DNA of 40,484 bases from a virus, in IMG/VR virus record IMGVR_UViG_3300043444_000151, positions 1 to 40,484 of that record, one strand, 5' to 3'. The translations under genes were made by a program, and so were the position numbers. Of this stretch, positions 5,530 through 32,924 are shown one piece after another. The number at the start of each line of letters is the position of its first letter. Within the stretch, counting starts at the first letter, position 1. The notes under the pieces were generated by a model that had not been told where the DNA came from, did no database searches, and saw only the letters and a program-made list of their open reading frames with translations.

Positions 5530-5558
5530 ATTATAAGACATTACGATCTGCTTGTCAA
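5530..5558 (-). promoter_or_regulatory. Consensus promoter TTGACA-17-TATAAT (leftward)
   Basis: Read on the minus strand, TTGACA (5558-5553), a 17-base spacer and TATAAT (5535-5530) match the sigma-A consensus. It drives the HExxH operon at 5499. The spacer contains one ATTACGATC repeat (5540-5548), the element otherwise found in the non-coding region. Its -35 overlaps the -35 of the rightward promoter. Confidence 0.85.
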
Positions 5559-5580
5559 TACCCCTGGATTTTGCTATACT
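5552..5580 (+). promoter_or_regulatory. Promoter TTGTCA-17-TATACT giving a leaderless mRNA
   Basis: TTGTCA 5552-5557 and TATACT 5575-5580, 17 bases apart. The ATG at 5587 is six bases after the -10 box, so transcription should start at or next to the start codon. It shares five -35 bases with the divergent promoter. Confidence 0.75.
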
Positions 5581-5586
5581 TTATAG

Positions 5587-5748
5587 ATGAATAGAAAACC
5601 ACACCAGTTCAAAGAATTCCCTAAGCCCATCACTCTGATTGTTTACACAAAGACACCGTCCAAGTGGCTACTTGTTGACAGAGAGACAGGTGCTACCTAT
5701 GAGGGAAACCCTAGAGGAAACTGGGACAAGATCGAACCTAAGAAGTAG
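5587..5748 (+). CDS. Small basic hypothetical protein, 53 aa
   Basis: A short rightward gene inside an otherwise leftward block, read from a predicted leaderless transcript. The protein is basic with a central beta-hairpin-like stretch (PITLIVYTKTPSKWLLVDRETG). Its end overlaps the end of the leftward gene at 5738 by 11 bases. Function unknown; the strong promoter argues that it is real. Confidence 0.6.
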   Translation: MNRKPHQFKEFPKPITLIVYTKTPSKWLLVDRETGATYEGNPRGNWDKIEPKK

Positions 5749-5929
5749 TCTTGTAGACTCCGTCTATAATATCCTTTACGATCTCAAATAGTTTATCTTG
5801 AAATAGCGGTGTTCTAGTTCTATTTGATAGCTCTTCTACCTCATAGACTTCTGCCATAATTCTTTGGCGTTCTAGGATTCTTCCCTTTTGTACCCAGGAT
5901 TCAATCCCTAGCTCAGGGTCATCATGCAT
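5738..5929 (-). CDS. Small helical hypothetical protein, 63 aa
   Basis: AAGGAG lies four bases before ATG 5929. The product is a charged helical protein (GRILERQRIMAEVYEVEELSNRTR). It overlaps the DenV-like gene by eight bases and is co-transcribed with it. No domain recognised. Confidence 0.65.
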   Translation of the reverse strand: MHDDPELGIESWVQKGRILERQRIMAEVYEVEELSNRTRTPLFQDKLFEIVKDIIDGVYKTTS

Positions 5930-6407
5930 GCTGCTCCTTGTGGGTTACCCAGTAGTATTGGCAACGGTCACAGCAAGGTTCATTGTCTTGGCTAATGACT
6001 GCTTCCTTAAATCCATAATAATATACATCATCTTTACGGTACAGGTTAGCCTTGTGCGTGGTGGTTATCTTACGCATAATGGCTTTGTCGTTGTACCAGC
6101 TTGGAAGTCCGTTACCCCATCGATCAATTGTACGTACACGAAGGTTAATCAGGTTCTCTTCGTTCTTGTCAGTCTTAATGCCACGACGTTTGGCTTCCCG
6201 AACCATGGCTAGGATATAGTCGAATAGAGAGTTTTCAAAGCCACGCCACATCTTAACAGCTGGGTGGTTACGCCACCCTGCACGAGGGTCATCGTTCATA
6301 AGAACGTTCATAATCTGGTAGCCTTCTAGGATTTGTTTGTTAAGACGCTTAGAGTCCAAGGCATGTGCAGATTTGTCAAAGTCTTTGTATGGTAGGAAGG
6401 TTTGCAT
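5922..6407 (-). CDS. MSMEG_6728 / T4 endonuclease V-like protein, 161 aa
   Basis: The N-terminus MQTFLPYKDFDKSAHALDSKRLNKQ followed by GWRNHPAVKMWRGFE matches, from memory, the actinobacterial MSMEG_6728 family, related to the pyrimidine-dimer glycosylase DenV. A role in repair of UV damage is therefore plausible. The C-terminus adds a Cys cluster (CCDRC) and a His-rich tail. AAGGAAA precedes the start, and a consensus promoter lies at 6473-6445. Confidence 0.75.
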   Translation of the reverse strand: MQTFLPYKDFDKSAHALDSKRLNKQILEGYQIMNVLMNDDPRAGWRNHPAVKMWRGFENSLFDYILAMVREAKRRGIKTDKNEENLINLRVRTIDRWGNGLPSWYNDKAIMRKITTTHKANLYRKDDVYYYGFKEAVISQDNEPCCDRCQYYWVTHKEQHA

Positions 6408-6444
6408 GGTTTCCTTAAATGAATGTTATTGTTCTCTTAATGAA

Positions 6445-6473
6445 AGTATACAGGGGATGGTAGAGAATGTCAA
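6445..6473 (-). promoter_or_regulatory. Promoter TTGACA-17-TATACT (leftward) with overlapping palindrome
   Basis: TTGACA (6473-6468) and TATACT (6450-6445) with a 17-base spacer on the minus strand, upstream of the gene at 6407. The palindrome CAAGCC-TTT-GGCTTG (6471-6485) overlaps the -35 and could be an operator or the terminator of the upstream gene. Two copies of TTTACCGCC (6498 and 6512) lie just upstream. Confidence 0.8.
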
Positions 6474-6525
6474 GCCTTTGGCTTGTACTACCTCTTATTT
6501 ACCGCCGAGCTTTTACCGCCCGAAC

Positions 6526-6819
6526 TTACTCTCCATTACCAATATCTCTAAATGATATAGGTGGGTGCTGTCTCTCATATGGCTGGATCTCAATATGCAA
6601 ATCAGGATAATCTTTAATAATCCTATTACGAGCATTGCCAATATCGTGCCCAGCTTTTTCATGCCTCTCTAAATGCTGGAGTGCTTCATATGGACTTGCC
6701 ATCCTAGGGAATGGATCATCGCTATTCCAGTCAACAAACAGACATCCGCAGCACTCAATAAATCCACCTACATGCTCAAACATATAGATGTCTGATGTGC
6801 TAAACCTTTCAAAGCTCAT
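6526..6819 (-). CDS. Conserved phage protein with GGFIECCGC motif, 97 aa
   Basis: The stretch YMFEHVGGFIECCGCLFVD, then SPYEALQHLERHEKAGHDIG, is a signature I recognise from small actinophage proteins. The paired cysteines and later histidines suggest a metal-binding fold. It overlaps the upstream gene by one base. Function not established. Confidence 0.7.
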   Translation of the reverse strand: MSFERFSTSDIYMFEHVGGFIECCGCLFVDWNSDDPFPRMASPYEALQHLERHEKAGHDIGNARNRIIKDYPDLHIEIQPYERQHPPISFRDIGNGE

Positions 6820-7187
6820 TACGCCTCATTCAATATATCTATCATACGCTGATACTCTTCTACGCTACCCATAAAGTAAAACTCATCATCTGGACTAATG
6901 CTCTTTGCTTCCTCTAGATTACGAGATACCCACTTCTTTGCCTTGTGGATTTGAAACCTAATAGCATTAAGAAGCTCTTCTTCTGCTTCTTCCAGGGTAA
7001 CGCACTTGCTGCCCTCAAAGTCATCGCCAATGTAACCGTGGTGCCATGCTATATAGTATGGCTTCTCTCCATAAGAGTAATACTTTTGGATATACCAGTG
7101 ACAGTCACGATCTTTGTGATGGTCTACCCCCACAAAACGCATCCAGATGCTAGATAGTCTAACTATCTCTTGCTGTATCTCATTCAT
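6819..7187 (-). CDS. Hypothetical protein, 122 aa
   Basis: The frame opens at a TTG (7199), but ATG 7187 follows GGAAGAG and overlaps the upstream stop, so it is preferred. The protein has an aromatic N-terminal half (HWYIQKYYSYGEKPYYIAWHHG) and a helical C-terminal half. It belongs to the overlapping leftward gene string. Function unknown. Confidence 0.65.
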   Translation of the reverse strand: MNEIQQEIVRLSSIWMRFVGVDHHKDRDCHWYIQKYYSYGEKPYYIAWHHGYIGDDFEGSKCVTLEEAEEELLNAIRFQIHKAKKWVSRNLEEAKSISPDDEFYFMGSVEEYQRMIDILNEA

Positions 7188-7615
7188 TGCTCTTCCCAAT
7201 TATTCTTATCAAAAATGTTTACAAACTCTGCCTTTGGTGGTCCTGGGCGGTACTTTACATAAATCTCAAATCCAGTACCATAGTATCCATTGCCGTCGTC
7301 ACCTTTAATATCAGCTACTGATGTTGAGATACCCCCAGAGTATACAAATAGTTGATAGGTATAACCAGACTCCCATTCGCTATCAGAATATGGAACAGCC
7401 TTAATCTCAACATCTGTAATAACGTTGTCAAACTTATTAAGATTGTCCAAGTAGTAGTCACCAGCACCACAGCTACATCCACCATCATTAGGGATTACCT
7501 GCAAAACAGTGCCATCGTCCAAGGTAAGGTCAGAACCCTCAGCCTTTACAACTTTCCTACCAATAAAAAGACTCTTGATCTTGTCTTCCTGGTAGTGTCC
7601 AATCATCTCAGTCAT
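7184..7615 (-). CDS. DUF7448-like conserved actinophage protein, 143 aa
   Basis: IGRKVVKAEGSDLTLDDGTVL followed by NDGGCSCGAGDYYLDNL is the pattern I associate with DUF7448, common in actinobacteriophages. The CSCGAG motif may bind metal. Its start overlaps the stop of the tiny gene upstream (ATGA). Biochemical role unknown. Confidence 0.75.
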   Translation of the reverse strand: MTEMIGHYQEDKIKSLFIGRKVVKAEGSDLTLDDGTVLQVIPNDGGCSCGAGDYYLDNLNKFDNVITDVEIKAVPYSDSEWESGYTYQLFVYSGGISTSVADIKGDDGNGYYGTGFEIYVKYRPGPPKAEFVNIFDKNNWEEQ

Positions 7616-7704
7616 TTTTGCCTTTTGCTAAGTATATAAATATTTACTGCAAGCAATACTATCATGGCACTCTGCATGATGTCAAGGATATTTTGTAGGC
7701 TCAT
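7612..7704 (-). CDS. Tiny membrane protein, 30 aa
   Basis: ATG 7704 follows CGGAGATCGGAA, and the TGA overlaps the next ATG. The peptide is a single hydrophobic helix (SAMIVLLAVNIYIL) with a basic SKRQK tail, consistent with an inner-membrane micropeptide. It overlaps both neighbours by four bases, supporting coupled translation. Confidence 0.55.
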   Translation of the reverse strand: MSLQNILDIMQSAMIVLLAVNIYILSKRQK

Positions 7705-7850
7705 TTCCGATCTCCGTCTAGCTCATCTAGCAGGTGTAGATGAATACCAGTTCCAGCCCTACCGATAGGAACTTCTTCATACATTACTTCATACCCTGCA
7801 TTTACCAGCATTCTGATAGCATCAGCTACTGCCTTGTCTTTATCACTCAC
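7701..7850 (-). CDS. Small hypothetical protein, 49 aa (GTG start)
   Basis: AAGGAG lies seven bases before GTG 7850, which overlaps the upstream stop (GTGA). The product has a helix then a strand-rich end (GTGIHLHLLDELDGD). Compact overlaps on both sides support it as a gene. Function unknown. Confidence 0.6.
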   Translation of the reverse strand: MSDKDKAVADAIRMLVNAGYEVMYEEVPIGRAGTGIHLHLLDELDGDRK

Positions 7851-8104
7851 TTCTGCTCTCCTTTTATTAACTCGTATGTTTGCTCAAAGATATCAGGCTT
7901 ACAAGGATAAAACTCACCCTGAATACCTTTAATTATAAAGTCGCCTACATCAGCAAGCATCTTTCCTTCTAGCGTGGAAATCACAAACTGATTGTACTCA
8001 TTGCGGTCTGCGTAGCCTACGAATAGGCCAACATCTGCACCATTATTTCCTGTATATTGTATAGCCTCAACAACTATTGGCTTCTTGCGGTAAAACTCAG
8101 TCAT
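7847..8104 (-). CDS. Conserved phage protein with GEFYPCKPDIFE motif, 85 aa
   Basis: YRKKPIVVEAIQYTG at the start and GDFIIKGIQGEFYPCKPDIF at the end form a well-known phage family pattern. The fold appears all-beta and the role is unknown. It overlaps the upstream acidic gene by four bases. Confidence 0.8.
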   Translation of the reverse strand: MTEFYRKKPIVVEAIQYTGNNGADVGLFVGYADRNEYNQFVISTLEGKMLADVGDFIIKGIQGEFYPCKPDIFEQTYELIKGEQK

Positions 8105-8328
8105 TCCTGCTCTTCCTCTTCCTCATCATCCCAGACATCATCTTCATACCAGTCTTCTTTGCAAAGACCAGTTAGCACAAAGCCACGGTCATCAAAATCA
8201 TATACATGGTTGTAGTGTGTACCCATGAATTCGCTATCCCAAGACGAATGAATTAGTTTAGCATCCTGGGGTAGTTGCTTAAGTCTCTCAATAGCTTCTG
8301 CTACTGTCATAGGTGTCTTGTAATTCAT
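8101..8328 (-). CDS. Small protein with acidic C-terminus, 75 aa
   Basis: The N-terminal half (TVAEAIERLKQLPQDAKLIHSS) resembles small phage proteins with a helix-strand core. The last 15 residues are almost all Asp/Glu. It starts in a TAATG overlap with the gene at 8474. An acidic tail can mimic DNA or bind basic partners, but nothing here proves that. Confidence 0.65.
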   Translation of the reverse strand: MNYKTPMTVAEAIERLKQLPQDAKLIHSSWDSEFMGTHYNHVYDFDDRGFVLTGLCKEDWYEDDVWDDEEEEEQE

Positions 8329-8474
8329 TACTTCTTATACCCCTTCCAAAATACAAATACATGTCTACCAAAATAAATATCTATGCCCTTATACTTTGGA
8401 TGCAGGTCAATGCAGAATCCATAGAATTTGCTAGACTCAAATCTGTTTGGTCCATAGTGTCTATACTTAATCAT
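8328..8474 (-). CDS. Small hypothetical protein, 48 aa
   Basis: ATG 8474 lies within the end of the upstream gene, and the TAA overlaps the next ATG by one base. The end of the protein (GIDIYFGRHVFVFW) resembles that of its upstream neighbour (FEIFNLYFGVEVWH), so the two may be diverged paralogues. Beta-rich; function unknown. Confidence 0.55.
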   Translation of the reverse strand: MIKYRHYGPNRFESSKFYGFCIDLHPKYKGIDIYFGRHVFVFWKGYKK

Positions 8475-8664
8475 TGCTGTGCCAAACCTCTACTCCAAAA
8501 TATAAGTTAAAAATTTCAAAAGTAATAGACCTATCATAAAAGTTAACATTAAACCCAATGCCCCAGTGATCAGACATTCCAGCATAAATATTAATCTTAT
8601 TGCGGATTATTACATGACCACCTATGCCCAACCAAGCTTTTTCAAACTTAATCCAGTTTGCCAT
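8467..8664 (-). CDS. Small beta-rich hypothetical protein, 65 aa
   Basis: Overlaps its neighbours on both sides (17 and 8 bases). The sequence alternates hydrophobic and polar residues (GGHVIIRNKINIYAGMSDHWGIGFNVNFYD), consistent with beta-strands. No known motif. Confidence 0.6.
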   Translation of the reverse strand: MANWIKFEKAWLGIGGHVIIRNKINIYAGMSDHWGIGFNVNFYDRSITFEIFNLYFGVEVWHSND

Positions 8665-8887
8665 ACAATGCCTCCATTGCTTTCATTACACAAACCTCAG
8701 CACCATCTCCGTAGCGATGCTTAAATGGAATACCATCAACACTCCAGTCTGACATTGATCTAGGAAGCTCTCCTTCAACAACAAGATAGTCATTGATGTC
8801 TTCTGGGTCTTCTCCACCAGATACCCTGCCAATATGCAGCTGATTGATGAAATAGTTATTAGCTCTGATGTCTACATGTAGTGGCAT
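8648..8887 (-). CDS. Conserved hypothetical protein, 79 aa
   Basis: AAGGAG is five bases before ATG 8887, with a TATAAA-like box just upstream, so this is the first gene of the 8887-6526 string. The strand-rich N-terminus (LHVDIRANNYFINQLHIGRV) and GIPFKHRYGDGAEVCVMKAMEALYG end resemble a phage family of unknown role. Confidence 0.65.
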   Translation of the reverse strand: MPLHVDIRANNYFINQLHIGRVSGGEDPEDINDYLVVEGELPRSMSDWSVDGIPFKHRYGDGAEVCVMKAMEALYGKLD

Positions 8888-8945
8888 GCTGTCTCCTTAC
8901 TTTTATAATTAAGGCTAACACTTTTAGGTTTGGAAGTCAAGTCTA

Positions 8946-8954
8946 TGTTATAAT
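8946..8954 (+). promoter_or_regulatory. Extended -10 promoter TGTTATAAT
   Basis: TGTTATAAT at 8946-8954 is an extended -10 element (TGn before TATAAT), ending six bases before the ATG at 8961; no good -35 is visible. The message should be leaderless. The same nine bases recur before the gene at 10457. Confidence 0.65.
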
Positions 8955-8960
8955 AATGTT

Positions 8961-9080
8961 ATGGCAGCTAAAAAGGGCAAGGGTTCTGGAGTTAGAAACT
9001 CAGACCGTCAAAACGGAAAAGCAAACAAGAAGCGTCCAAAGGTGTTTGATGCATCTAAGCGTCGTCTCGTGAACGCTTAG
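8961..9080 (+). CDS. Very basic peptide, 39 aa
   Basis: The peptide is rich in Lys, Arg and Asn (MAAKKGKGSG, then KANKKRPKVFDASKRRLV), suggesting nucleic-acid binding. It is read from a predicted leaderless transcript and its end overlaps the opposing gene at 9055 by 26 bases. Function unknown. Confidence 0.55.
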   Translation: MAAKKGKGSGVRNSDRQNGKANKKRPKVFDASKRRLVNA

Positions 9081-9207
9081 TTTTCTTTTCTACGTGACAT
9101 TCGCAGGTACACTTAGTATCTGGAAAGCTTGGTAATTCTTTTATACATTCTTTGTGATGTCCCGTCATACACCAGCCGAACTTTGAACATCCAGTAATTT
9201 TTGCCAT
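9055..9207 (-). CDS. Cys/His-rich small zinc-binding-like protein, 50 aa
   Basis: Six Cys and several His in 50 residues (GCSKFGWCMTGHHKEC, then KCTCECHVEKK) strongly suggest metal binding; similar small proteins occur in actinophages. ATG 9207 is six bases after a minus-strand TATAAT. It is convergent with, and overlaps, the basic peptide gene. The basic tail could contact nucleic acid. Confidence 0.6.
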   Translation of the reverse strand: MAKITGCSKFGWCMTGHHKECIKELPSFPDTKCTCECHVEKKTKRSRDDA

Positions 9208-9213
9208 TGTTTA

Positions 9214-9241
9214 ATTATATACTTGACAAACTAAAAGTCAA
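9214..9241 (-). promoter_or_regulatory. Promoter TTGACT-16-TATAAT (leftward, leaderless)
   Basis: On the minus strand TTGACT (9241-9236) and TATAAT (9219-9214) precede ATG 9207 by six bases. It is interleaved with the rightward promoter at 9223-9251: each -35 lies inside the other's spacer. Confidence 0.7.
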
Positions 9242-9251
9242 CCCCCATAAT
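9223..9251 (+). promoter_or_regulatory. Promoter TTGACA-17-CATAAT (rightward, leaderless)
   Basis: TTGACA 9223-9228 and CATAAT 9246-9251 with 17 bases between; ATG 9259 is seven bases downstream, so a leaderless mRNA is expected. Overlaps the divergent promoter, so polymerase probably cannot occupy both. Confidence 0.75.
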
Positions 9252-9258
9252 ATCTTTC

Positions 9259-9438
9259 ATGGATAGAACAACTAAACGTAAACTTAATGCAGAAACGGCA
9301 TCGATTGTTAGCAAGGCCAAGAAGGATATGGAAAAGTGGATGTCTTCACTAGATTATATTCCATCTACAAAAGAGATTAAGTCTTGGCAGGCTGGCTATA
9401 TTGCAGGAATCAACAGAGGATCAAATGTTCCAAAGTGA
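9259..9438 (+). CDS. Small helical protein, 59 aa
   Basis: Basic, helical protein (TTKRKLNAETASIVSKAKKDMEKWM, then QAGYIAGINRGS). It overlaps the next gene by 14 bases, so it is co-transcribed with a nuclease-like gene and may assist it. No domain recognised. Confidence 0.6.
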   Translation: MDRTTKRKLNAETASIVSKAKKDMEKWMSSLDYIPSTKEIKSWQAGYIAGINRGSNVPK

Positions 9439-9823
9439 GAGCAAGAAGTCTGGGGACAAGTTTGAAGACTTGGTTCAGACAGACCTTAAGCGTATGGGTC
9501 ATAAGCGGATTCGAAAGCATGTCATTTTAACTGACATTGGTGTTGAAGCTGACTTTGCCCATAGAGATTACGATGGTACTCAGGTGTACGTCGAAGCCAA
9601 GGGTGGTGAGCAGGGTGCAAAAAAGAGACCAGGTGCCAAGAGAACAGATAGCGTAAAGAAGGCTATTGCAAACGGTGCACTAATTAAGAGTGCTTTCCCA
9701 GACGTACGCTTTGTGGTCTATTTTTCTGACCTACCCAAAAAGAATTCAAGCTCTGATAAAATGATTAAGGAAGCCATTAAGGCTAACTATATAGACACTG
9801 TTCGCTATTTGATAGAGGTATAA
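9425..9823 (+). CDS. PD-(D/E)XK nuclease-like protein, 132 aa
   Basis: GDKFEDLVQTDLKRMG, then EADFAHRDYDG, then VYVEAKGG gives the Glu ... Asp ... Glu-x-Lys arrangement of the PD-(D/E)XK superfamily (Holliday-junction resolvase or restriction-endonuclease-like fold). An upstream TTG at 9401 is also in frame, but ATG 9425 has GAGG five bases before it. Probable DNA-processing role; the exact substrate cannot be told. Confidence 0.7.
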   Translation: MFQSESKKSGDKFEDLVQTDLKRMGHKRIRKHVILTDIGVEADFAHRDYDGTQVYVEAKGGEQGAKKRPGAKRTDSVKKAIANGALIKSAFPDVRFVVYFSDLPKKNSSSDKMIKEAIKANYIDTVRYLIEV

Positions 9824-9824
9824 T

Positions 9825-10043
9825 ATGAACGACAAAATAAGCACAACTCCAGCTCAGGCAAAGATCCACACAGCTTGGAAGAATAGAATTAAGAACAATA
9901 AGCCAGTTGAGGGTGACTACAACTTTGTCATTTGGAAAAAGGGTGGCGAGGTTATTTACCAGCCACCTGCCGATGGTGCCAAGCCTTCAGTGTTTATGAA
10001 TGGTGAGTGGATAGCTTTGAATATTCCAGGAATGGAAGATTAA
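9825..10043 (+). CDS. Small hypothetical protein, 72 aa
   Basis: Starts one base after the nuclease-like gene's stop and overlaps the convergent zinc-ribbon gene by four bases. N-terminal basic helix (QAKIHTAWKNRIKNNK), then a small beta domain (YNFVIWKKGGEVIYQPPADG). Function unknown. Confidence 0.6.
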   Translation: MNDKISTTPAQAKIHTAWKNRIKNNKPVEGDYNFVIWKKGGEVIYQPPADGAKPSVFMNGEWIALNIPGMED

Positions 10044-10228
10044 GCTTCGTACTCTACTTCGATGAATGGGTATGTCTCTTGACACTTGTGGCAGTAGTGA
10101 GTATACTCTTTAATTGTGGTGCCGCCAAGAACAACCTGATCTAGCTTCGATAGATTAATAAGGTCTGGCGTTGGGTAGCCATAAATAATTGGTGCCATTT
10201 CTTGTTCATTGCAAAGAGGACATATCAT
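10040..10228 (-). CDS. Zinc-ribbon protein, 62 aa
   Basis: CPLC at the N-terminus and CHKC near residue 46 form a two-CxxC zinc ribbon around a GYPTPD...LGG core, like small bacterial and phage zinc-ribbon proteins. Its start shares one base with the stop of a second zinc-ribbon gene (TAATG). The two are likely paralogues. Confidence 0.7.
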   Translation of the reverse strand: MICPLCNEQEMAPIIYGYPTPDLINLSKLDQVVLGGTTIKEYTHYCHKCQETYPFIEVEYEA

Positions 10229-10413
10229 TACTCTATGATACCATATCTTATCTTTGTTTTGCAGTTTTTGCAGTAAAAGTTTTCTAGTCCGTATTTGTCT
10301 GCAATGTAGATAAAACCAAGGATAACTTTTTCAATTATTGCATGGTCTACATAGTCGTAGTATATTGGTATGGTCTTTTCCCCACATGAATCGCAGTCTG
10401 GACTTGGATACAT
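10228..10413 (-). CDS. Zinc-ribbon protein, 61 aa
   Basis: CDSC and CKNC knuckles about 40 residues apart enclose an ILGFIYIADKYG segment. ATG 10413 lies five bases after a minus-strand TATAAT (10424-10419), so a leaderless message is likely. Divergently arranged to the 10457 leader. Confidence 0.65.
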   Translation of the reverse strand: MYPSPDCDSCGEKTIPIYYDYVDHAIIEKVILGFIYIADKYGLENFYCKNCKTKIRYGIIE

Positions 10414-10418
10414 ACTTT

Positions 10419-10424
10419 ATTATA
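10419..10424 (-). promoter_or_regulatory. -10 box TATAAT, five bases before ATG 10413
   Basis: Minus-strand TATAAT at 10424-10419 followed by AAAGT and the start codon. No convincing -35 is visible. It is part of the leaderless pattern seen throughout 5.5-15.5 kb. Confidence 0.55.
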
Positions 10425-10445
10425 ACCTTTTATTTTGTTAAATAA

Positions 10446-10454
10446 TGTTATAAT
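10446..10454 (+). promoter_or_regulatory. Extended -10 promoter TGTTATAAT
   Basis: Same nine bases as at 8946-8954. Transcription would begin near 10461, producing an 80-base leader before the exonuclease gene. No clear -35. Confidence 0.6.
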
Positions 10455-10456
10455 AT

Positions 10457-10540
10457 ATGGATAGGGTAGAGGCAAGGACAGTTATTGCTCAGGCAACAGG
10501 CTGTAACTCTCTGCCCTTTTTTATTAGAAAGTTTAGTTAA
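10457..10540 (+). CDS. Possible 27-aa leader peptide
   Basis: An ATG two bases after the -10 box opens a 27-codon frame (MDRVEARTVIAQATG...) that spans the hairpin at 10464-10516 and ends in TAATG with the exonuclease gene. It may be a leader peptide controlling readthrough, or merely an open frame in an untranslated leader; the predicted start site at about 10461 argues for caution. Confidence 0.3.
   Translation: MDRVEARTVIAQATGCNSLPFFIRKFS
10464..10522 (+). terminator. Terminator/attenuator-like hairpin in the exonuclease leader
   Basis: GGGTAGAG (10464-10471) pairs with CTCTGCCC (10509-10516, one G-U pair) and is followed at once by six T. Inner pairs ACAG/CTGT and TTGC/GCAA could compete. 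It lies between a promoter and the gene at 10540, the geometry of transcription attenuation. Confidence 0.6.
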
Positions 10541-11106
10541 TGATAACGTACATCGGCCTTGACGGAGAAATGTCAAGCTCAGATATCCACGCTGGTGCCA
10601 AGCTCATTCAGATTGGTTTGGCTAAGTTTGTTGGTGACGAAGTTGAATCCGTAGGTATCCTTCTTAACCCTGGTAAGGAAATGCACTGGACTGCAGAAGC
10701 TCAGTCTGTACACCAATTTACAAGAGAAGACCTATGGTCTAAGGGACTGATGCCTGACTCGGTAGACAGTGACCTTGCTAACTGGGCTAACCCAGGACGT
10801 ATGAGAAGAGACACTGTTGCTGTTGGGTTTAACGTTGGTGCTTTTGATATGCCATTCGTAGAACAGTCCCTGCCATTCCTAAGATCTAAGCTATCTCGAA
10901 GGACCGTAGACCTCAACTCAATTATCTTTGCTATGGCAGATACAGATAAGCAAGTTCAGAAAATTAAGGCTGCTGCAAAAGACTATGCACGTCAGAAGAT
11001 GGAAGGCATGTTTAGTGGCTTTAAGAACCGTGAACACGATGCAGAGTACGACGCTGTAATGGCACTGTATTGCTTTGAATATCTAAGATCTGTTATCAAA
11101 AAGTAA
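10540..11106 (+). CDS. DnaQ-like DEDDh 3'-5' exonuclease, 188 aa
   Basis: LDGEMS (D8, E10), FNVGAFD (D103) and HDAEYD (H166, D171) give the four acidic residues and His of the DEDDh exonuclease family. Length equals a bare exonuclease domain without a polymerase. Such proteins proofread or trim single-stranded ends in phage replication. Preceded by an attenuator-like leader and followed by nrdH. Confidence 0.85.
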   Translation: MITYIGLDGEMSSSDIHAGAKLIQIGLAKFVGDEVESVGILLNPGKEMHWTAEAQSVHQFTREDLWSKGLMPDSVDSDLANWANPGRMRRDTVAVGFNVGAFDMPFVEQSLPFLRSKLSRRTVDLNSIIFAMADTDKQVQKIKAAAKDYARQKMEGMFSGFKNREHDAEYDAVMALYCFEYLRSVIKK

Positions 11107-11114
11107 TACTTTCC

Positions 11115-11144
11115 TTGACTTTTAGTCAAACACTTCCGTATAAT
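11115..11144 (+). promoter_or_regulatory. Promoter TTGACT-18-TATAAT
   Basis: TTGACT 11115-11120 and TATAAT 11139-11144 lie upstream of nrdH. The transcript would have a normal leader of about 24 bases with AAGGAG at 11161, so this gene is not leaderless. Confidence 0.75.
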
Positions 11145-11174
11145 TAATACATTAACCCATAAGGAGAACAACTA

Positions 11175-11396
11175 ATGACAACCGTCTATACTAAACCATC
11201 TTGTGTCCAATGCGACATGACAAAGAAAATGCTAGATAAGAATGGTGTTGAGTATAACACGGTAGATATTACTCAAGACCCAGCTGCTTACGAAATGATT
11301 GTTGGCATGGGATTTATGGCTGCCCCAGTTGTTATCACAGACAATGATGCCTGGGCTGGATTCAATCCAGAAAAGATTAACGCTATCGCTGCTTGA
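11175..11396 (+). CDS. nrdH: NrdH-type glutaredoxin-like protein, 73 aa
   Basis: VYTKPSCVQCDMTKKML carries the CVQC active site (C10, C13) typical of NrdH, and MAAPVVITDNDAW is the conserved cis-Pro region. NrdH supplies electrons to class Ib ribonucleotide reductase, whose subunits are encoded at 29.9-33.3 kb on the other strand. AAGGAG precedes the start. A perfect promoter for the next gene overlaps its stop codon. Confidence 0.9.
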   Translation: MTTVYTKPSCVQCDMTKKMLDKNGVEYNTVDITQDPAAYEMIVGMGFMAAPVVITDNDAWAGFNPEKINAIAA

Positions 11397-11421
11397 CATA
11401 GCAGCCTGAAAGACGTATAAT
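11393..11421 (+). promoter_or_regulatory. Perfect consensus promoter TTGACA-17-TATAAT
   Basis: TTGACA 11393-11398 contains the nrdH stop codon; TATAAT is at 11416-11421. The next ATG (11426) is only four bases beyond the -10, so translation is probably leaderless or starts at the transcript end. Confidence 0.85.
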
Positions 11422-11425
11422 TTAT

Positions 11426-11611
11426 ATGAGCATACCAGATATCGATTACATATTAGGACTAGACATGGGACAGTTTGAGTATCAAGTACCGCTGTCTCCA
11501 GTTAAGCCTGAAGACATTGAGCGTGTTGCTAAAGAATACCTTGCAAAAAAACAACAAGAACTAGAAGGAAATGATGAGAGACATATTTCTGACAGCCCAA
11601 GGACAGATTGA
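11426..11611 (+). CDS. Small hypothetical protein, 61 aa
   Basis: Acidic N-terminus (SIPDIDYILGLDMGQFEYQ) then a charged helix (VKPEDIERVAKEYLAKKQQELEG). First gene of the groES-thyX operon and placed directly at a consensus promoter. It overlaps the next gene by 38 bases. Function unknown. Confidence 0.65.
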   Translation: MSIPDIDYILGLDMGQFEYQVPLSPVKPEDIERVAKEYLAKKQQELEGNDERHISDSPRTD

Positions 11612-11822
11612 AGATCACGTTGACGAGCATCAGCACGGAACAGTTGGTCTAGATTCCCTTTTTGAAGTAATGTTTGGCATTGAGCATATAATTGCTGAGT
11701 TTTTTTGGAATGCTGTGTTTTTGCTAATTGGGTTTGCCTTTTCTAAAGCTATAGCACTTAGAAAGATTCACAAATATATTGATGATAAGCATGGTGTCAA
11801 GCACCAGAAAGAAGACTATTAA
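11574..11822 (+). CDS. Single-pass membrane protein, 82 aa
   Basis: An N-terminal soluble part (FLTAQGQIEDHVDEHQHG) leads to a membrane helix (FFWNAVFLLIGFAFSKAIAL) and a basic tail. Adjacent ATGs at 11571 and 11574; the second gives better spacing from AGAAGG. The membrane segment resembles that of the gene at 12112, so groES is flanked by two related small membrane proteins. Confidence 0.65.
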   Translation: MRDIFLTAQGQIEDHVDEHQHGTVGLDSLFEVMFGIEHIIAEFFWNAVFLLIGFAFSKAIALRKIHKYIDDKHGVKHQKEDY

Positions 11823-12112
11823 TGATTAAGCCACTAGAAGACAAGGTAGTTGTCAAGCCTATTGTGGAAAAAGAAAAGACCAGTGCATCTGGTTTGATTA
11901 TCCAGAGTCACACTGAAGAGAAACCGTCTGAGGGAATTGTTGTTGCGGTTGGTCCAGGCATCGTCTTTGCTAATGGTACACGCCTAGACATTGACCTAAA
12001 GGTTGGGGACAAGGTCGCATACTCAAAGTTTAGTGGTACTGAGTTTGAGGGACACCTAATCCTGCCATACAAAGATATCTTTGCGGTCATTGAAGAGGCC
12101 GTTGATGGCTAA
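11822..12112 (+). CDS. groES: GroES co-chaperonin, 96 aa
   Basis: IKPLEDKVVVKPIVEKEKTSASGLIIQ and EGIVVAVGPGI, DLKVGDKVAYSKFSGTEF are the GroES family blocks in order, at full normal length and including the mobile loop that docks on GroEL. No GroEL gene is in the window, so it probably works with the host chaperonin to fold phage proteins. Its start and stop each share one base with the flanking genes. Confidence 0.9.
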   Translation: MIKPLEDKVVVKPIVEKEKTSASGLIIQSHTEEKPSEGIVVAVGPGIVFANGTRLDIDLKVGDKVAYSKFSGTEFEGHLILPYKDIFAVIEEAVDG

Positions 12113-12273
12113 TGGATTGGCCACTCATTCTGTCGATGCTGACAGACATAAACCATGTTATTGTTGACTTCTTTTGGAATACCATTTATGAGTTGACAGT
12201 TGCGGTTATTTCGTATAAAGTTATTGTAAAGAAACTAGAAAAGAGATTTAAGAAACATGACGATGATAATTAA
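12112..12273 (+). CDS. Small membrane protein, 53 aa
   Basis: Starts in a TAATG overlap with groES and overlaps thyX by 17 bases. One hydrophobic segment (FFWNTIYELTVAVISYKVIV) is followed by a strongly basic tail (KKLEKRFKKHDDDN). The FFWN start of the helix is shared with the membrane protein upstream of groES, suggesting a duplication. Confidence 0.6.
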   Translation: MDWPLILSMLTDINHVIVDFFWNTIYELTVAVISYKVIVKKLEKRFKKHDDDN

Positions 12274-12973
12274 GGATTTTCCAGATCCTGTTAAAGTATT
12301 GGATGAAGGATATGTACGTTTGGTTGATACCCTTGGGGATGACCTATCTATTGTTAACGCTGCACGTGTATCGTACGATAAAGAGTCTACAAGCTTTGAG
12401 TCCAGGGATGAGAAGCTTATTAGTTTCCTCATTCGTGAAGGGCACACGTCGCCATTCCGCCATGCTGCACTCACGTTCGAGGTATACGCACCGCTATTCG
12501 TTGCACGACAATGGTGGAAGTATGCAGTAGCATCTACCCACGTAGACGACCAGAATGGTTGGAACGAGTCAAGTCGTCGTTACATCACAGAGCATGAGCA
12601 ATTCTATGTACCGTTGCCAGATAAGTGGCGTAGCAAGCCTGAGAACAGCAAGCAGGGTAGTGGTGAGCCAATCGATCCAGAGGTTGGTTATATGCACTTT
12701 GAGCGTCTAATCAAGACAATCGAAGCTGGTACACGAATGTATCACGATGCTATGAATGATGGTGTTGCACCAGAGCTAGCACGTCTATTCCTGCCTGCAT
12801 ATGGAATGTATGTTCGCTGGCGTTGGACTGTATCGCTACAAGGCGTTATGACATTTCTTGACCAGCGACTAGAGCATGATGCACAGTGGGAGATTCAGGA
12901 GTATGCCAAGGCTGTTAGAGATCTGTCACAGCAGGCATTTCCAGAGACATTCCGAGTGGTAGGTTCTCTATAA
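12257..12973 (+). CDS. thyX: ThyX flavin-dependent thymidylate synthase, 238 aa
   Basis: Residues 60-110 (REGHTSPFRHAALTFEVYAP, then NESSRRYI) and the C-terminal WRWTVSLQGVMTFLDQRL match ThyX, which makes dTMP from dUMP using FAD and folate. The canonical RHR of the RHRx7S signature is replaced by KYA within QWWKYA (85-90), and about seven extra residues precede NESSRRY (103-109). Likely still ThyX, but the altered motif may affect dUMP binding. In an operon with groES and a dNMP kinase-like gene. Confidence 0.85.
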   Translation: MTMIIKDFPDPVKVLDEGYVRLVDTLGDDLSIVNAARVSYDKESTSFESRDEKLISFLIREGHTSPFRHAALTFEVYAPLFVARQWWKYAVASTHVDDQNGWNESSRRYITEHEQFYVPLPDKWRSKPENSKQGSGEPIDPEVGYMHFERLIKTIEAGTRMYHDAMNDGVAPELARLFLPAYGMYVRWRWTVSLQGVMTFLDQRLEHDAQWEIQEYAKAVRDLSQQAFPETFRVVGSL

Positions 12974-13512
12974 TGATTATTGGTCTTAGTGGATATGCTC
13001 AGGTAGGCAAAGATACGATTGCTAACTATCTTGTTGAGCAGTACGGATATCGCAGAGTAGCCTTTGCAGATCCAATTCGTCAGGCATTGTACAAGCTTAA
13101 TCCTAAGATTGACATTGCTGACATGATTGGTGTTCCAATTGCTACCGCTGTAGATGGCCTTGGATGGGAAAGCGTCAAGGTTGATAGCGAGGATGCAAGA
13201 CAGCTATTACAGCGAATGGGTACTGAGGTTGGCAGAAACATTTTTGGTTCTGACTTCTGGGTATACCAGGCATTCAATGGCGTGTCTGCTGACGACAAGG
13301 TAGTCTTTACAGACGTTAGGTTCCAGAATGAGGCTGACCACATCAAGTCATACTATGGGCAGGTGTGGAGAGTAAACAAACTAAATCATGGACCAGTTAA
13401 CGGACATGCTTCTGAGACTGCCTTAGATAGCTATAACTTTGATTGGAGCATTCCAAACTATGGGACAAAGGAAGACCTATTCTCAATCATCGACTCTATA
13501 ATGGCTAGCTAG
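12973..13512 (+). CDS. Deoxynucleoside monophosphate kinase-like P-loop protein, 179 aa
   Basis: GLSGYAQVGKDT (residues 4-15) is a Walker A loop, and FADPIRQALYKLNP plus RQLLQRMGTEVGRNIFGSDFWV are typical of phage dNMP kinases (T4 gp1-like). It would convert dNMPs, including ThyX-made dTMP, to dNDPs. Its start shares one base with the thyX stop. Confidence 0.8.
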   Translation: MIIGLSGYAQVGKDTIANYLVEQYGYRRVAFADPIRQALYKLNPKIDIADMIGVPIATAVDGLGWESVKVDSEDARQLLQRMGTEVGRNIFGSDFWVYQAFNGVSADDKVVFTDVRFQNEADHIKSYYGQVWRVNKLNHGPVNGHASETALDSYNFDWSIPNYGTKEDLFSIIDSIMAS

Positions 13513-13517
13513 TCATT

Positions 13518-13594
13518 GGGGTGATAGCTCAGCAGGTTAGAGCAGCGGACTCATAATCCGTCGGTCCTGGGTTCAAGTCCCAGTCACCCCACCA
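13518..13594 (+). tRNA. tRNA-Met (CAT), CCA encoded
   Basis: Seven-pair acceptor GGGGTGA/TCACCCC, D-arm, anticodon loop CTCATAA and T-loop GTTCAAG are all present, with A-CCA encoded at 13591-13594. The CAT anticodon fits elongator Met; a lysidine-modified Ile2 tRNA cannot be excluded from sequence alone. Confidence 0.85.
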
Positions 13595-13595
13595 A

Positions 13596-13671
13596 CCCTC
13601 CATAGCTCAGTGGATAGAGCAAGAGCCTTCTAATCTCTTGGTCGTAGGTTCGATTCCTACTGGGGGGACCA
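13596..13671 (+). tRNA. tRNA-Arg (TCT), CCA encoded
   Basis: Acceptor CCCTCCA/TGGGGGG, anticodon loop CTTCTAA (TCT, reads AGA) and T-loop GTTCGAT, with encoded ACCA at the end. One anticodon-stem pair next to the loop is mismatched. It sits one base after the Met tRNA. AGA is rare in GC-rich actinobacteria but useful to an AT-rich phage. Confidence 0.85.
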
Positions 13672-13672
13672 C

Positions 13673-13873
13673 TTACTCGGCAAGCTTTTCGTATGCCCAA
13701 CCCAAAACAGAAGACGCTATCTGATCGTTGTCAGCATCCTTTTCTATAATAAGATTACGAAGCTTAGTAAATATCCTTATTCTTTCTTGTGCCTGGATTA
13801 TTTCTATAGTATCACTACCAATATAGTCAGATAGTAGCGATACTGCTTTGTCTATTTCTTCGGGGTACTCCAT
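13673..13873 (-). CDS. Small acidic helical protein, 66 aa
   Basis: All-helical, acidic (EEIDKAVSLLSDYIGSD, then IRIFTKLRNLIIEKDADND). ATG 13873 is six bases after a minus-strand TATAAT, predicting a leaderless transcript, and its stop lies two bases from the Arg tRNA. Function unknown. Confidence 0.65.
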   Translation of the reverse strand: MEYPEEIDKAVSLLSDYIGSDTIEIIQAQERIRIFTKLRNLIIEKDADNDQIASSVLGWAYEKLAE

Positions 13874-13879
13874 TGTTTA

Positions 13880-13885
13880 ATTATA
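13880..13885 (-). promoter_or_regulatory. -10 box TATAAT before ATG 13873
   Basis: Minus-strand TATAAT (13885-13880), then TAAACA and ATG. The 15 bases TATAATTAAACAATG are identical at the leftward gene starting at 9207. No strong -35 is visible. Confidence 0.6.
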
Positions 13886-13904
13886 ATGGACATTAATAAC
13901 CAGT

Positions 13905-13910
13905 TATAAT
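13905..13910 (+). promoter_or_regulatory. -10 box TATAAT before the HNH gene
   Basis: TATAAT 13905-13910 lies eight bases before ATG 13919, so a leaderless or near-leaderless HNH transcript is predicted. It faces away from the divergent -10 at 13880-13885. Confidence 0.55.
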
Positions 13911-13918
13911 AGTTGTAT

Positions 13919-14194
13919 ATGGTGAAATCAGCAAAGCACCGTAAAGCTATGGCTGCGGTACTAGAAGAGCTACATCTCTATAAAGAGAAGAAAGGCTGTG
14001 CTGACTGCCGTCAACATTTTCCACACTACGTCCTAGAGTTTGACCACATGCCTGGATTCCAAAAGATTGACGTTGTCTATCGTGTTCTAAGAAACTACGG
14101 AGAAGAGATGGCTTGGAAAGAAGTTGCTAAGTGCGAAGTGGTCTGCTCCAACTGTCACAAGATCAGAACTTATGAAAGAGAACAGTACGAATAG
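13919..14194 (+). CDS. HNH endonuclease-like protein, 91 aa
   Basis: GCADC, LEFDHMPGFQK and CEVVCSNCHKIRTYER form an HNH nuclease fold with two CxxC zinc knuckles and the DH active-site pair. Such free-standing HNH proteins can be homing or packaging nucleases. ATG 13919 is chosen because it lies just after the -10; an in-frame TTG at 13913 is also possible. Confidence 0.8.
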   Translation: MVKSAKHRKAMAAVLEELHLYKEKKGCADCRQHFPHYVLEFDHMPGFQKIDVVYRVLRNYGEEMAWKEVAKCEVVCSNCHKIRTYEREQYE

Positions 14195-14336
14195 CCTAGA
14201 GGATCAAATACGAGAGGTATTGTTTGATCTTGGTAAAGACATTAAGATTCATAAAGTTGATAATGTCAATATGATTATAGAAATTGATTACGAGAAATAC
14301 GTTGAAAAGCTTAAATCAATTCTAGGGGGGGTATAA
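14172..14336 (+). CDS. Small hypothetical protein, 54 aa
   Basis: Begins inside the end of the HNH gene (23-base overlap). Helix then strand layout (LEDQIREVLFDLGKDIKIHKVDNVNMIIEIDYE). No strong ribosome site, so coupling to HNH translation is likely. Function unknown; it ends at a bidirectional hairpin. Confidence 0.5.
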   Translation: MKENSTNSLEDQIREVLFDLGKDIKIHKVDNVNMIIEIDYEKYVEKLKSILGGV

Positions 14337-14345
14337 TGATACCCC
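14328..14345. terminator. Bidirectional hairpin between convergent genes
   Basis: GGGGTAT (14328-14334) and ATACCCC (14339-14345) with an AATG loop lie exactly between the rightward gene ending at 14336 and the leftward gene ending at 14354. A related GATACCCCCGAAAGTTA sequence follows the leftward gene ending at 4498. Confidence 0.6.
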
Positions 14346-14353
14346 TGAAAGTT

Positions 14354-15472
14354 TTACTTCCCTCTAAGCGTCTTCAGCTTGTGTGCAACAACGGTATCTG
14401 TGGGCTTTCCATCACGATATAGACGGATAACTGCAGCTGGATCTTCTGGTGTTCCAGTTACCGTAACTTCTGTTCCTGGTACTTTATAGCTACCATCACG
14501 AATAATCCTAGTAATCTTACCTTCAGCTCTACCGCCAGACGAATTCCAAGATACCATAGAGCCAACGCCAACAGACTTAAAGATGTCTACTGGCTGAGCT
14601 TTTGTCCAGTCTTTACCAAAATCAGCAAACAATGCCTTGTCCTTCATTCTGTTAACAATAGCACGAGACCAGGAGAATCCTGCATCTCCACCCCAAGCAT
14701 CCCACATGATTCTACCATTTGATGGGTTGCTTGTGTTATAAAAATCTTTACCCTTTTTGTCTACTTCATGGCGAGAAAAGAATGAGTACATACGCTTAAC
14801 AGTGCTTAGAGACATAGATCTTCCAGCTACGATATCCGTTGCTCTACCCCAGCCAACTGCCGTGCCAGCACCAGTAGCCTTGCCTTCTTCTTTCCACTTC
14901 AAAGCACGACGTGCTGCAGCCTTCATGCCAGAGGTTGGAGTGTAGCTGTCAGCTTTAAGCATCATCTCCATGCTATCATCCGCATCGTTCTCGATAGAAA
15001 TGTTTGGTCGATCGATAGGTTTGACATCAGACATAAGAGCACCAATAGAATAAGGTGTGTAATAGTACACTCCATCATCCTCTTCAAGAAGTCTTAGGGC
15101 TACCGCTGGATTCTCTGGTGTAGAGTTTACTGAATAAGGGTTGCCTGGTTCTCCATAAGTGCCACCTTCACGCATAACGTGCTCCACCTGACCAACAACG
15201 GCACCTTCAGATGTCATTGCAATAACAAAATCACCTTCAGTTATCTCTCTCTTGCTCACCTTTGGCCATTCTTCTGGATTTTTGATGCCAACACCACCAC
15301 CAGAGGTAACCATGTCTTTTTCATCGATGTTACCTTCCGACTGGTTGATAGCATAAATCTGGTTAGCAGCTTCTTCAGCTGTATTGTGGCAACCCATTAC
15401 GGTTCCATCATCTTTTACCGCAGGGTAGCCTGAGCAACCGTATGATCCTTTTTCTCCGACGTGATATGGCAT
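14354..15472 (-). CDS. Phage protein with two Tudor-like repeats around an SFFxRHE domain, 372 aa
   Basis: Residues 1-40 (MPYHVGEKGSYGCSGYPAVK, MGCHNTAEEA) match an N-terminal module seen in phage proteins. Two related beta domains (GDFVIAMTSEGAVVGQVEHV..., and GSMVSWNSSGGRAEGKITRI...), both with a TPE(N/D)PA(V/A) motif, resemble DUF2945/Tudor domains. Between them is a helical domain with RMYSFFSRHEVD and MWDAWGGDAGFSW, often found in capsid or maturation-protease polypeptides. The frame opens at 15502, but ATG 15472 is six bases after TATAAT and fits the family start. Function unknown, possibly virion-related. Confidence 0.7.
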   Translation of the reverse strand: MPYHVGEKGSYGCSGYPAVKDDGTVMGCHNTAEEAANQIYAINQSEGNIDEKDMVTSGGGVGIKNPEEWPKVSKREITEGDFVIAMTSEGAVVGQVEHVMREGGTYGEPGNPYSVNSTPENPAVALRLLEEDDGVYYYTPYSIGALMSDVKPIDRPNISIENDADDSMEMMLKADSYTPTSGMKAAARRALKWKEEGKATGAGTAVGWGRATDIVAGRSMSLSTVKRMYSFFSRHEVDKKGKDFYNTSNPSNGRIMWDAWGGDAGFSWSRAIVNRMKDKALFADFGKDWTKAQPVDIFKSVGVGSMVSWNSSGGRAEGKITRIIRDGSYKVPGTEVTVTGTPEDPAAVIRLYRDGKPTDTVVAHKLKTLRGK

Positions 15473-15478
15473 ACATAC

Positions 15479-15487
15479 ATTATAGCA
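15479..15487 (-). promoter_or_regulatory. Extended -10 promoter TGCTATAAT (leaderless)
   Basis: Minus-strand TGCTATAAT (15487-15479) ends six bases before ATG 15472 and sets that start. It is eight bases downstream, in reading direction, of a long hairpin. Confidence 0.65.
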
Positions 15488-17244: not shown

Positions 17245-17565
17245 CTACTCCTTGTCCATCGTTAATAGTTTCCATGTTTCTGCCCAGTCCTTTTTAGACC
17301 TATGCCTGTTAAATTCTCTGGATATCTTGCCGTTTTCAATATAAACGCCACCCCAGACACCGTAGCCTTTCTGAGAAATACCAACAGCAAAGCATTGCCT
17401 TGCTACTGGACAGCCAGCACATAGATTGTCTATAGCTGGTCTTAAGTTTGGGTCTTCCTCATACTTGTCAAAAAATAAATCAACATCAAAGTCTTTACAG
17501 GAGGCAGAATCTTTCCATTCGTGCCTGTCCAAACTTACCTCACAAGCTTGTCTGGGATATCCCAT
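17245..17565 (-). CDS. WhiB-like iron-sulfur transcription factor, 106 aa
   Basis: Four cysteines (C23, C49, C52, C58; the CxxCx5C block is CAGCPVARQC) and the GVWGG turn (69-73) define the WhiB family, which is restricted to actinobacteria and their phages. WhiB proteins bind a 4Fe-4S cluster and the main sigma factor to change promoter use. This phage copy may redirect host transcription, for instance at the unusual phage promoters. Confidence 0.9.
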   Translation of the reverse strand: MGYPRQACEVSLDRHEWKDSASCKDFDVDLFFDKYEEDPNLRPAIDNLCAGCPVARQCFAVGISQKGYGVWGGVYIENGKISREFNRHRSKKDWAETWKLLTMDKE

Positions 17566-24659: not shown

Positions 24660-25000
24660 TAGGATATCCAGTGAATGGTTCTTATGGGTCATGCTAGGAT
24701 ATCCCTGGAGAGTTACAACCAGTTGTCAATGACAATAATCGTTCATGCCTCCAATTAAAAAGTTACGAATACCCCAGTTGCAATAACCGAAAGACGCATA
24801 CTTTTTAACTATAGTGTGAGTAGGTGGATTGCCTTTTACCACCAGTGCCTAGTCAATACGGCTCGTCAAGATCCGCTTTGAGCACACCCTCAGTTTAGCT
24901 TGCTAAGCTTGGACGCTAGTCCCCAAGTTGCCTTATTCCCCCCATTTGACTCTGGGAATTATTCGGCCATACTCCACAGAAACCGTCGTCTCTGTGTTTG
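24660..25000. other. 341-base non-coding stretch with direct repeat and small palindromes
   Basis: TAGGATATCC occurs twice (24660-24669, 24695-24704). Further on are TAGCTTGCTA and ACAGA/TCTGT inverted repeats. I found no T-loop, so no normal tRNA, and no gene longer than a few codons; a minus-strand GGAGG-C-ATG opens only a five-codon frame. It may be decayed tRNA DNA or an unknown RNA. Confidence 0.5.
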
Positions 25001-26777: not shown

Positions 26778-26960
26778 TTAGTGGTCTAAGATTTTAATTA
26801 CTGGGGAGCAGGGGTCTCCGCCCTCTTCCCACTCTTTTTCTTCTTCTTCAGTCATGTACGGATCACCGTCATGTGTGTAGCAGAAAGGCTCTGAGACCCA
26901 TCCCTTATCTACACCGTAGCGTATCCAATCGTGGATATCTGTAATCGTGTTTTCGTTCAT
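26778..26960 (-). CDS. Conserved small actinophage protein, 60 aa
   Basis: WIRYGVDKGWVSEPFCYTHD followed by an acidic run and GGDPCSPVIKIL is a recurring small protein in actinophages. Role unknown; it lies upstream of the protease gene in the same direction. Confidence 0.7.
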   Translation of the reverse strand: MNENTITDIHDWIRYGVDKGWVSEPFCYTHDGDPYMTEEEEKEWEEGGDPCSPVIKILDH

Positions 26961-26991
26961 ATAAAAAGTATACAGATAGTATGGCTATCTG

Positions 26992-29873: not shown

Positions 29874-32924
<3,051 letters not shown>

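Follow-up and report, generated by a model that had tools for sequence, protein, structure and literature searches.

Promoter boxes placed for predicted leaderless expression in a WhiB-encoding phage and its relatives

The stretch of DNA analysed here, referred to as the window, comprises the 40,484 nucleotides of the IMG/VR virus record IMGVR_UViG_3300043444_000151 and has a GC content of 42%. Between positions 5,530 and 15,487 a first-pass annotation had pointed out about ten start codons preceded almost immediately by a −10-like box, and all ten boxes are present exactly as it listed them, with gaps (the number of bases between the box and the ATG) of 6, 6, 6, 7, 5, 2, 4, 6, 8 and 6. These are given below, together with a structured RNA that follows one of the boxes and an eleventh site outside this range.

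5575..5580, plus strand: TATACT with an extended TGc and TTGTCA (5552-5557) at a spacing of 17; gap 6 to the ATG at 5587 (gene 5587-5748)
8949..8954, plus strand: TATAAT with an extended TGn; gap 6 to the ATG at 8961 (gene 8961-9080, 39 aa, basic)
9214..9219, minus strand: TATAAT with TTGACT (9236-9241) at a spacing of 16; gap 6 to the ATG at 9207
9246..9251, plus strand: CATAAT, a −10-like box, with TTGACA (9223-9228) at a spacing of 17; gap 7 to the ATG at 9259
10419..10424, minus strand: TATAAT; gap 5 to the ATG at 10413 (gene 10228-10413)
10449..10454, plus strand: TATAAT; gap 2 to the ATG at 10457
10463..10522, plus strand: candidate structured leader RNA with a 10-bp stem, an inner hairpin and a U-tract, upstream of an exonuclease gene (10540-11106)
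11393..11421, plus strand: TTGACA and TATAAT at a spacing of 17, the −35 overlapping the upstream gene's stop codon; gap 4 to the ATG at 11426
13880..13885, minus strand: TATAAT; gap 6 to the ATG at 13873 (gene 13673-13873)
13905..13910, plus strand: TATAAT; gap 8 to the ATG at 13919 (HNH endonuclease-like gene 13919-14194)
15479..15484, minus strand: TATAAT with an extended TGc; gap 6 to the ATG at 15472 (gene 14354-15472)
26967..26972, minus strand: TATACT with TTGACA upstream at a spacing of 17; gap 6 to the ATG at 26960

Judging by its protein similarities, the phage, which encodes WhiB, is related to the Streptomyces Stanwilliamsviridae: identity to the proteins of Streptomyces phages of this family is 54% for TerL and reaches 68% for ThyX, and a WhiB-family protein, an actinophage marker, is encoded at 17344-17517 on the minus strand (E 1.6e-13). 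WhiB was found in 21 of 21 records tested and, among the control genomes, only in Corynebacterium. Together with the TerL and ThyX affinity it points indirectly to an actinobacterial translation context. Megablast returned no close annotated phage, and a search of genome contigs with ThyX yielded three MAG contigs, labelled as cyanobacterium, Bacteroidales and Bacillota, which are probably binned phage contigs. The low GC content and the kind of relatives suggest a freshwater origin. Elsewhere in the window, a manA RNA (RF01745, 62.4 bits) lies beside a tRNA gene cluster at 24813-24993 on the minus strand, and at 972-2537 on the plus strand a shared GAAAGTAG-like string replaces the standard Shine-Dalgarno (SD) sequence before several genes, for example those at 972, 1558 and 2097.

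Gene starts were taken from a simple coding-score caller, and for this reason most weight was placed on a gene-free count, in which the sequence after every distinct TATA[AC]T was searched for an ATG at each distance. A ThyX query provided 80 related viral loci, and for six large relatives (80-112 kb) nearly the full sequence was read; sequences of relatives are not independent of one another, and identical upstream regions were removed and protein families counted. Across the whole window the gene-free count gave eight ATGs at gap 6 compared with 1.5 per other gap, and in the relatives 372 compared with 60.5 ± 15.4, with a further 120 at gap 7. Among the called genes of the window, where a box had to match at least 5 of 6 positions with A2 and T6 required, 5 of 64 ATG genes carried a box at gap 6, as against 0.6 with shuffled upstream regions (P = 0.0012). 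Counted by family in the relatives, 86 of 508 protein families had a gap-6 box compared with about 18 per other gap. The count of −10-to-ATG distances that had been proposed earlier thus shows an excess at gap 6 in the window, against shuffled controls as well as other gaps, and in the relatives, against other gaps. The range of 2 to 8 bases claimed by the first-pass annotation proved too wide, however: enrichment is found at 6 to 7, while gaps 2 and 4 showed no excess in the relatives by the gene-free count (67 and 59).

Genomes of this composition could in principle produce such a pattern by chance, AT-rich intergenic DNA yielding TATAAT-like strings near ATG codons from which a reader picks the best, and the first 20 kb of the window contain 64 promoter-like matches compared with 50.4 ± 7 in shuffles, which would be compatible with this. 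The spacing counts refute chance, and we give it next to no probability, since the peak at 6 to 7 is sharp and confined to ATG and the boxes are conserved in diverged orthologues. In the gene-free count of the relatives, GTG, TTG and CTG showed no peak at gap 6 (GTG 28 vs 27.8; TTG 51 vs 54.5), and cyanophage-type phages of equal GC showed no excess of ATG at this distance (15 vs 18.1). A control population of 80 cyanophage-type loci had a gap-6 box at 0.4% of genes (GC 0.402 vs 0.411), and T4, KVP40, S-PM2, SPO1 and DC31 at 0-0.7%; P23-45, at 58% GC and with a single such gene, was uninformative. The six large relatives, by comparison, carried the box at 7.7-13.9% of ATG genes per genome. Leaderless-type genes are present both near ThyX and near TerL, gap-6 genes making up 14.3% in ThyX-centred and 4.1% in TerL-centred relatives. 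ATG at gap 6 is also enriched in the Streptomyces Stanwilliamsviridae phages LukeCage and Samisti12 (13 vs 2.1), which have gap-6 boxes at 4.0% and 2.7% of genes, respectively, and the same pipeline found them at 7.2% of genes in the Thermus phage phiYS40.

Conservation at the individual sites is uneven. Of 19 upstream regions of 8961 orthologues, 11 have the box at gap 6, one at gap 7 and one at gap 5, and 24 of 29 members of the 13873 family are of leaderless type. The product of 13919 matches phrog_3106 (HNH-like endonuclease, E 2.6e-20), and its orthologues keep the wider gap, at 8 in 11 of 16 and at 7 in 2 of 16, which makes it a predicted conserved near-leaderless case with a leader of 2 nt in the window and of one or two bases in orthologues. 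The 15472 product has a C-terminal Hva1_TUDOR domain and an N-terminal piece that weakly matches head maturation proteases (phrog_80); 13 of its 26 orthologue upstream regions have a box at gap 6 and the other 13 have none nearby, which indicates that the start type switches between phages. Boxes are thus conserved in related phages at 8961, 13873, 13919 and 15472, whereas orthologues of 9207 are mostly not leaderless and 21 of 23 orthologues of 9259 lack a near box, both sites remaining plausible in the window. No orthologue of 5587 or 10413 was found in the relatives set. At 11426 all eight orthologues have gap 6, most with the same TTGACA, so that the gap of 4 in the window is aberrant and may stem from a short deletion or from a difference in assembly. 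The additional gene at 26960, outside the range of the first-pass annotation, belongs to a family that is leaderless-type in 7 of 11 members. The ribonucleotide reductase gene contains an exact TATAATN6ATG at 31751-31765 on the minus strand, the fifth such match and probably a chance one.

The box at 10449..10454 is best read as the promoter of a leadered transcript rather than of a leaderless gene. A gap of 2 places the ATG at 10457 upstream of the predicted start site, and a related locus (L006) lacks this ATG yet keeps both the box and the downstream RNA. The RNA at 10463-10522 folds with a dG of −24.2 (z −2.95), and L006 has the same shape at 53-112 (−20.5 kcal/mol, z about −3) with stems that differ in sequence. 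These are the only two members found, and no credible Rfam family matched the leader RNA; its modelled fold resembles that of a terminator or attenuator leader. In another relative (L023) a tRNA-like sequence takes the place of the leader RNA before the exonuclease orthologue, any link between the two being speculative. About six or seven sites in the window are well placed; of the ten originally proposed, 10457 is no gene and 11426 is aberrant.

In an alignment anchored on the ATG, gap-6 genes display a TATAAT, and T or C stands directly before the start codon; positions −35 to −30 hold a weak TTGACA. The extended −10 is visible as T (0.62) at −15 and G (0.72) at −14; TGn accompanies 0.56 of gap-6 boxes compared with 0.12 of control boxes, and a −35 at 16-18 bp is found in 0.34 compared with 0.12 at shifted spacing. 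The two elements are partly interchangeable, a −35 occurring in 0.24 of TGn promoters and 0.47 of those without TGn. At position 7 past the box, leadered promoters of the same phages favour A (0.62), with a YR step in 0.52. With a gap of 6, position 7 is the A of the ATG, so the start-site signal falls on the start codon, and a pyrimidine precedes it at −1 in 0.83 of gap-6 genes compared with 0.34 of other genes. Initiation can be helped by A/U-rich 5′ regions, and the box might on that account be a translation or operator element, such as an A/U-rich standby or a repressor site, with no promoter activity; given that TGn, the −35 and the −1 pyrimidine are promoter features, we consider this barely credible.

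An SD sequence (SD>=5) precedes only 0.3% of leaderless-type genes compared with 29.6%, and a divergent upstream neighbour is fivefold more frequent (33.8% vs 6.5%). About 31% of leaderless-type genes, on the other hand, lie at most 30 bp from an upstream gene on the same strand, and some may therefore also be read from longer transcripts. This leaves a further explanation, in which the promoters are real but translation proceeds mainly from longer mRNAs, either leadered or produced by read-through, and the leaderless start plays a secondary part. The close same-strand neighbours and the 15472 orthologues, half of which are without a near box, speak for it; the near absence of SD sequences speaks against it, as does the divergent arrangement of many of these genes, for which an upstream transcript is unlikely. 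On balance we regard this explanation as improbable.

The earlier proposal that small regulators and zinc proteins form a class of their own, marked by leaderless starts, does not hold. Leaderless-type proteins are slightly longer than those of other first-in-unit genes (median 129.5 vs 97 aa) and less frequently contain CxxC (7.3% vs 13.5%), and their families, assigned by N-terminal sequence alone, look functionally mixed (Dps-like, tail-like, glycosyltransferase-like and LmbE-like). A special regulon of such proteins, with control through the translation machinery of the kind proposed for phiYS40, finds some support in the precedent of that phage, where IF2 goes up and IF3 down (PMC3594737), and in the somewhat higher frequency of proteins with two CxxC motifs among the leaderless-type ones (6.4% vs 3.1%). 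Considering the longer proteins, the rarer CxxC, the mixed families and the failure to find an IF3_C domain in 11 records, we nevertheless judge such a regulon highly improbable.

We posit that these genes are very probably expressed as leaderless mRNAs from promoters of the host polymerase, with transcription starting at the A of the ATG. The phages would use the housekeeping RNA polymerase of their actinobacterial hosts at promoters whose −10 ends 6 and sometimes 7 bases before the ATG, often in the extended form TGnTATAAT and with a −35 in some cases; with its first base at the A of that ATG, the mRNA would have no leader, and actinobacterial ribosomes could translate it directly from the 5′-terminal AUG. 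About 8-14% of ATG-start genes in near-complete relatives would be of this type and are first in their transcription unit more often than other genes, whose starts are in many cases preceded by SD sequences. No sigma-70 region 2 was detected in the same 11 records, and since these yielded no IF3 domain either, reliance on the sigma factor and ribosomes of the host is the simplest reading. The actual 5′ ends, host sigma factor use and the translation route are what we infer from these patterns. Spacing, promoter anatomy, initiator position, SD absence and conservation over dozens of related phages strongly favour the systematic leaderless use first suspected.

Leaderless genes abound in actinobacteria and are known from a few phages, and the present finding therefore extends a known kind. 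Actinobacterial TA-led genes likewise have the −10 just before the start codon and no SD sequence, and medium-GC genomes resemble the phages in showing the full TAtaaT rather than TAnnnT (PMC3160421, PMC4633059). The genes described here differ in being found in phages and in their frequent extended TGn, and their share falls somewhat short of the 19.2% that actinobacteria average (Zheng et al. 2011, PMC3160421). Only ATG is enriched in the phages, whereas leaderless ATG and GTG perform about equally in mycobacterial reporters (Shell et al. 2015, PMC4633059). A systematically leaderless phage is not unprecedented, since phiYS40, most of whose middle and late transcripts are reported to be leaderless, came earlier (PMC3594737). 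It resembles the present phages in having many leaderless transcripts, which are here predicted from sequence, but its host belongs to another phylum, and SD genes outnumber leaderless ones in the phages studied here. LukeCage and Samisti12 are related and gap-6 enriched, with a lower share (2.7-4.0%) and a higher GC (0.48-0.49). Lambda and P2 have single leaderless genes (PMC4633059) and a leaderless start has been proposed for gene 90 of mycobacteriophage Adephagia (PMC11373665); these have the same gene architecture, confined to a single gene or a few where the present phages make it a genome-wide habit.

From the sequences alone, a large group of uncultured actinophages thus appears to share the leaderless habit of actinobacteria. 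This is useful for calling gene starts and finding short genes in these phages, and sets of orthologues in which some starts are leaderless and others leadered provide natural material for comparison. Beyond this we tentatively raise the possibility, which we hold to be rather unlikely, that a widespread freshwater actinophage clade relies on leaderless mRNAs, always beginning with AUG, to express roughly a tenth of its genes and that, with orthologues switching between leaderless and leadered starts, the leaderless genes could form an expression class tuned separately in infection. The finding would matter more if leaderless genes were separately controlled in this way.
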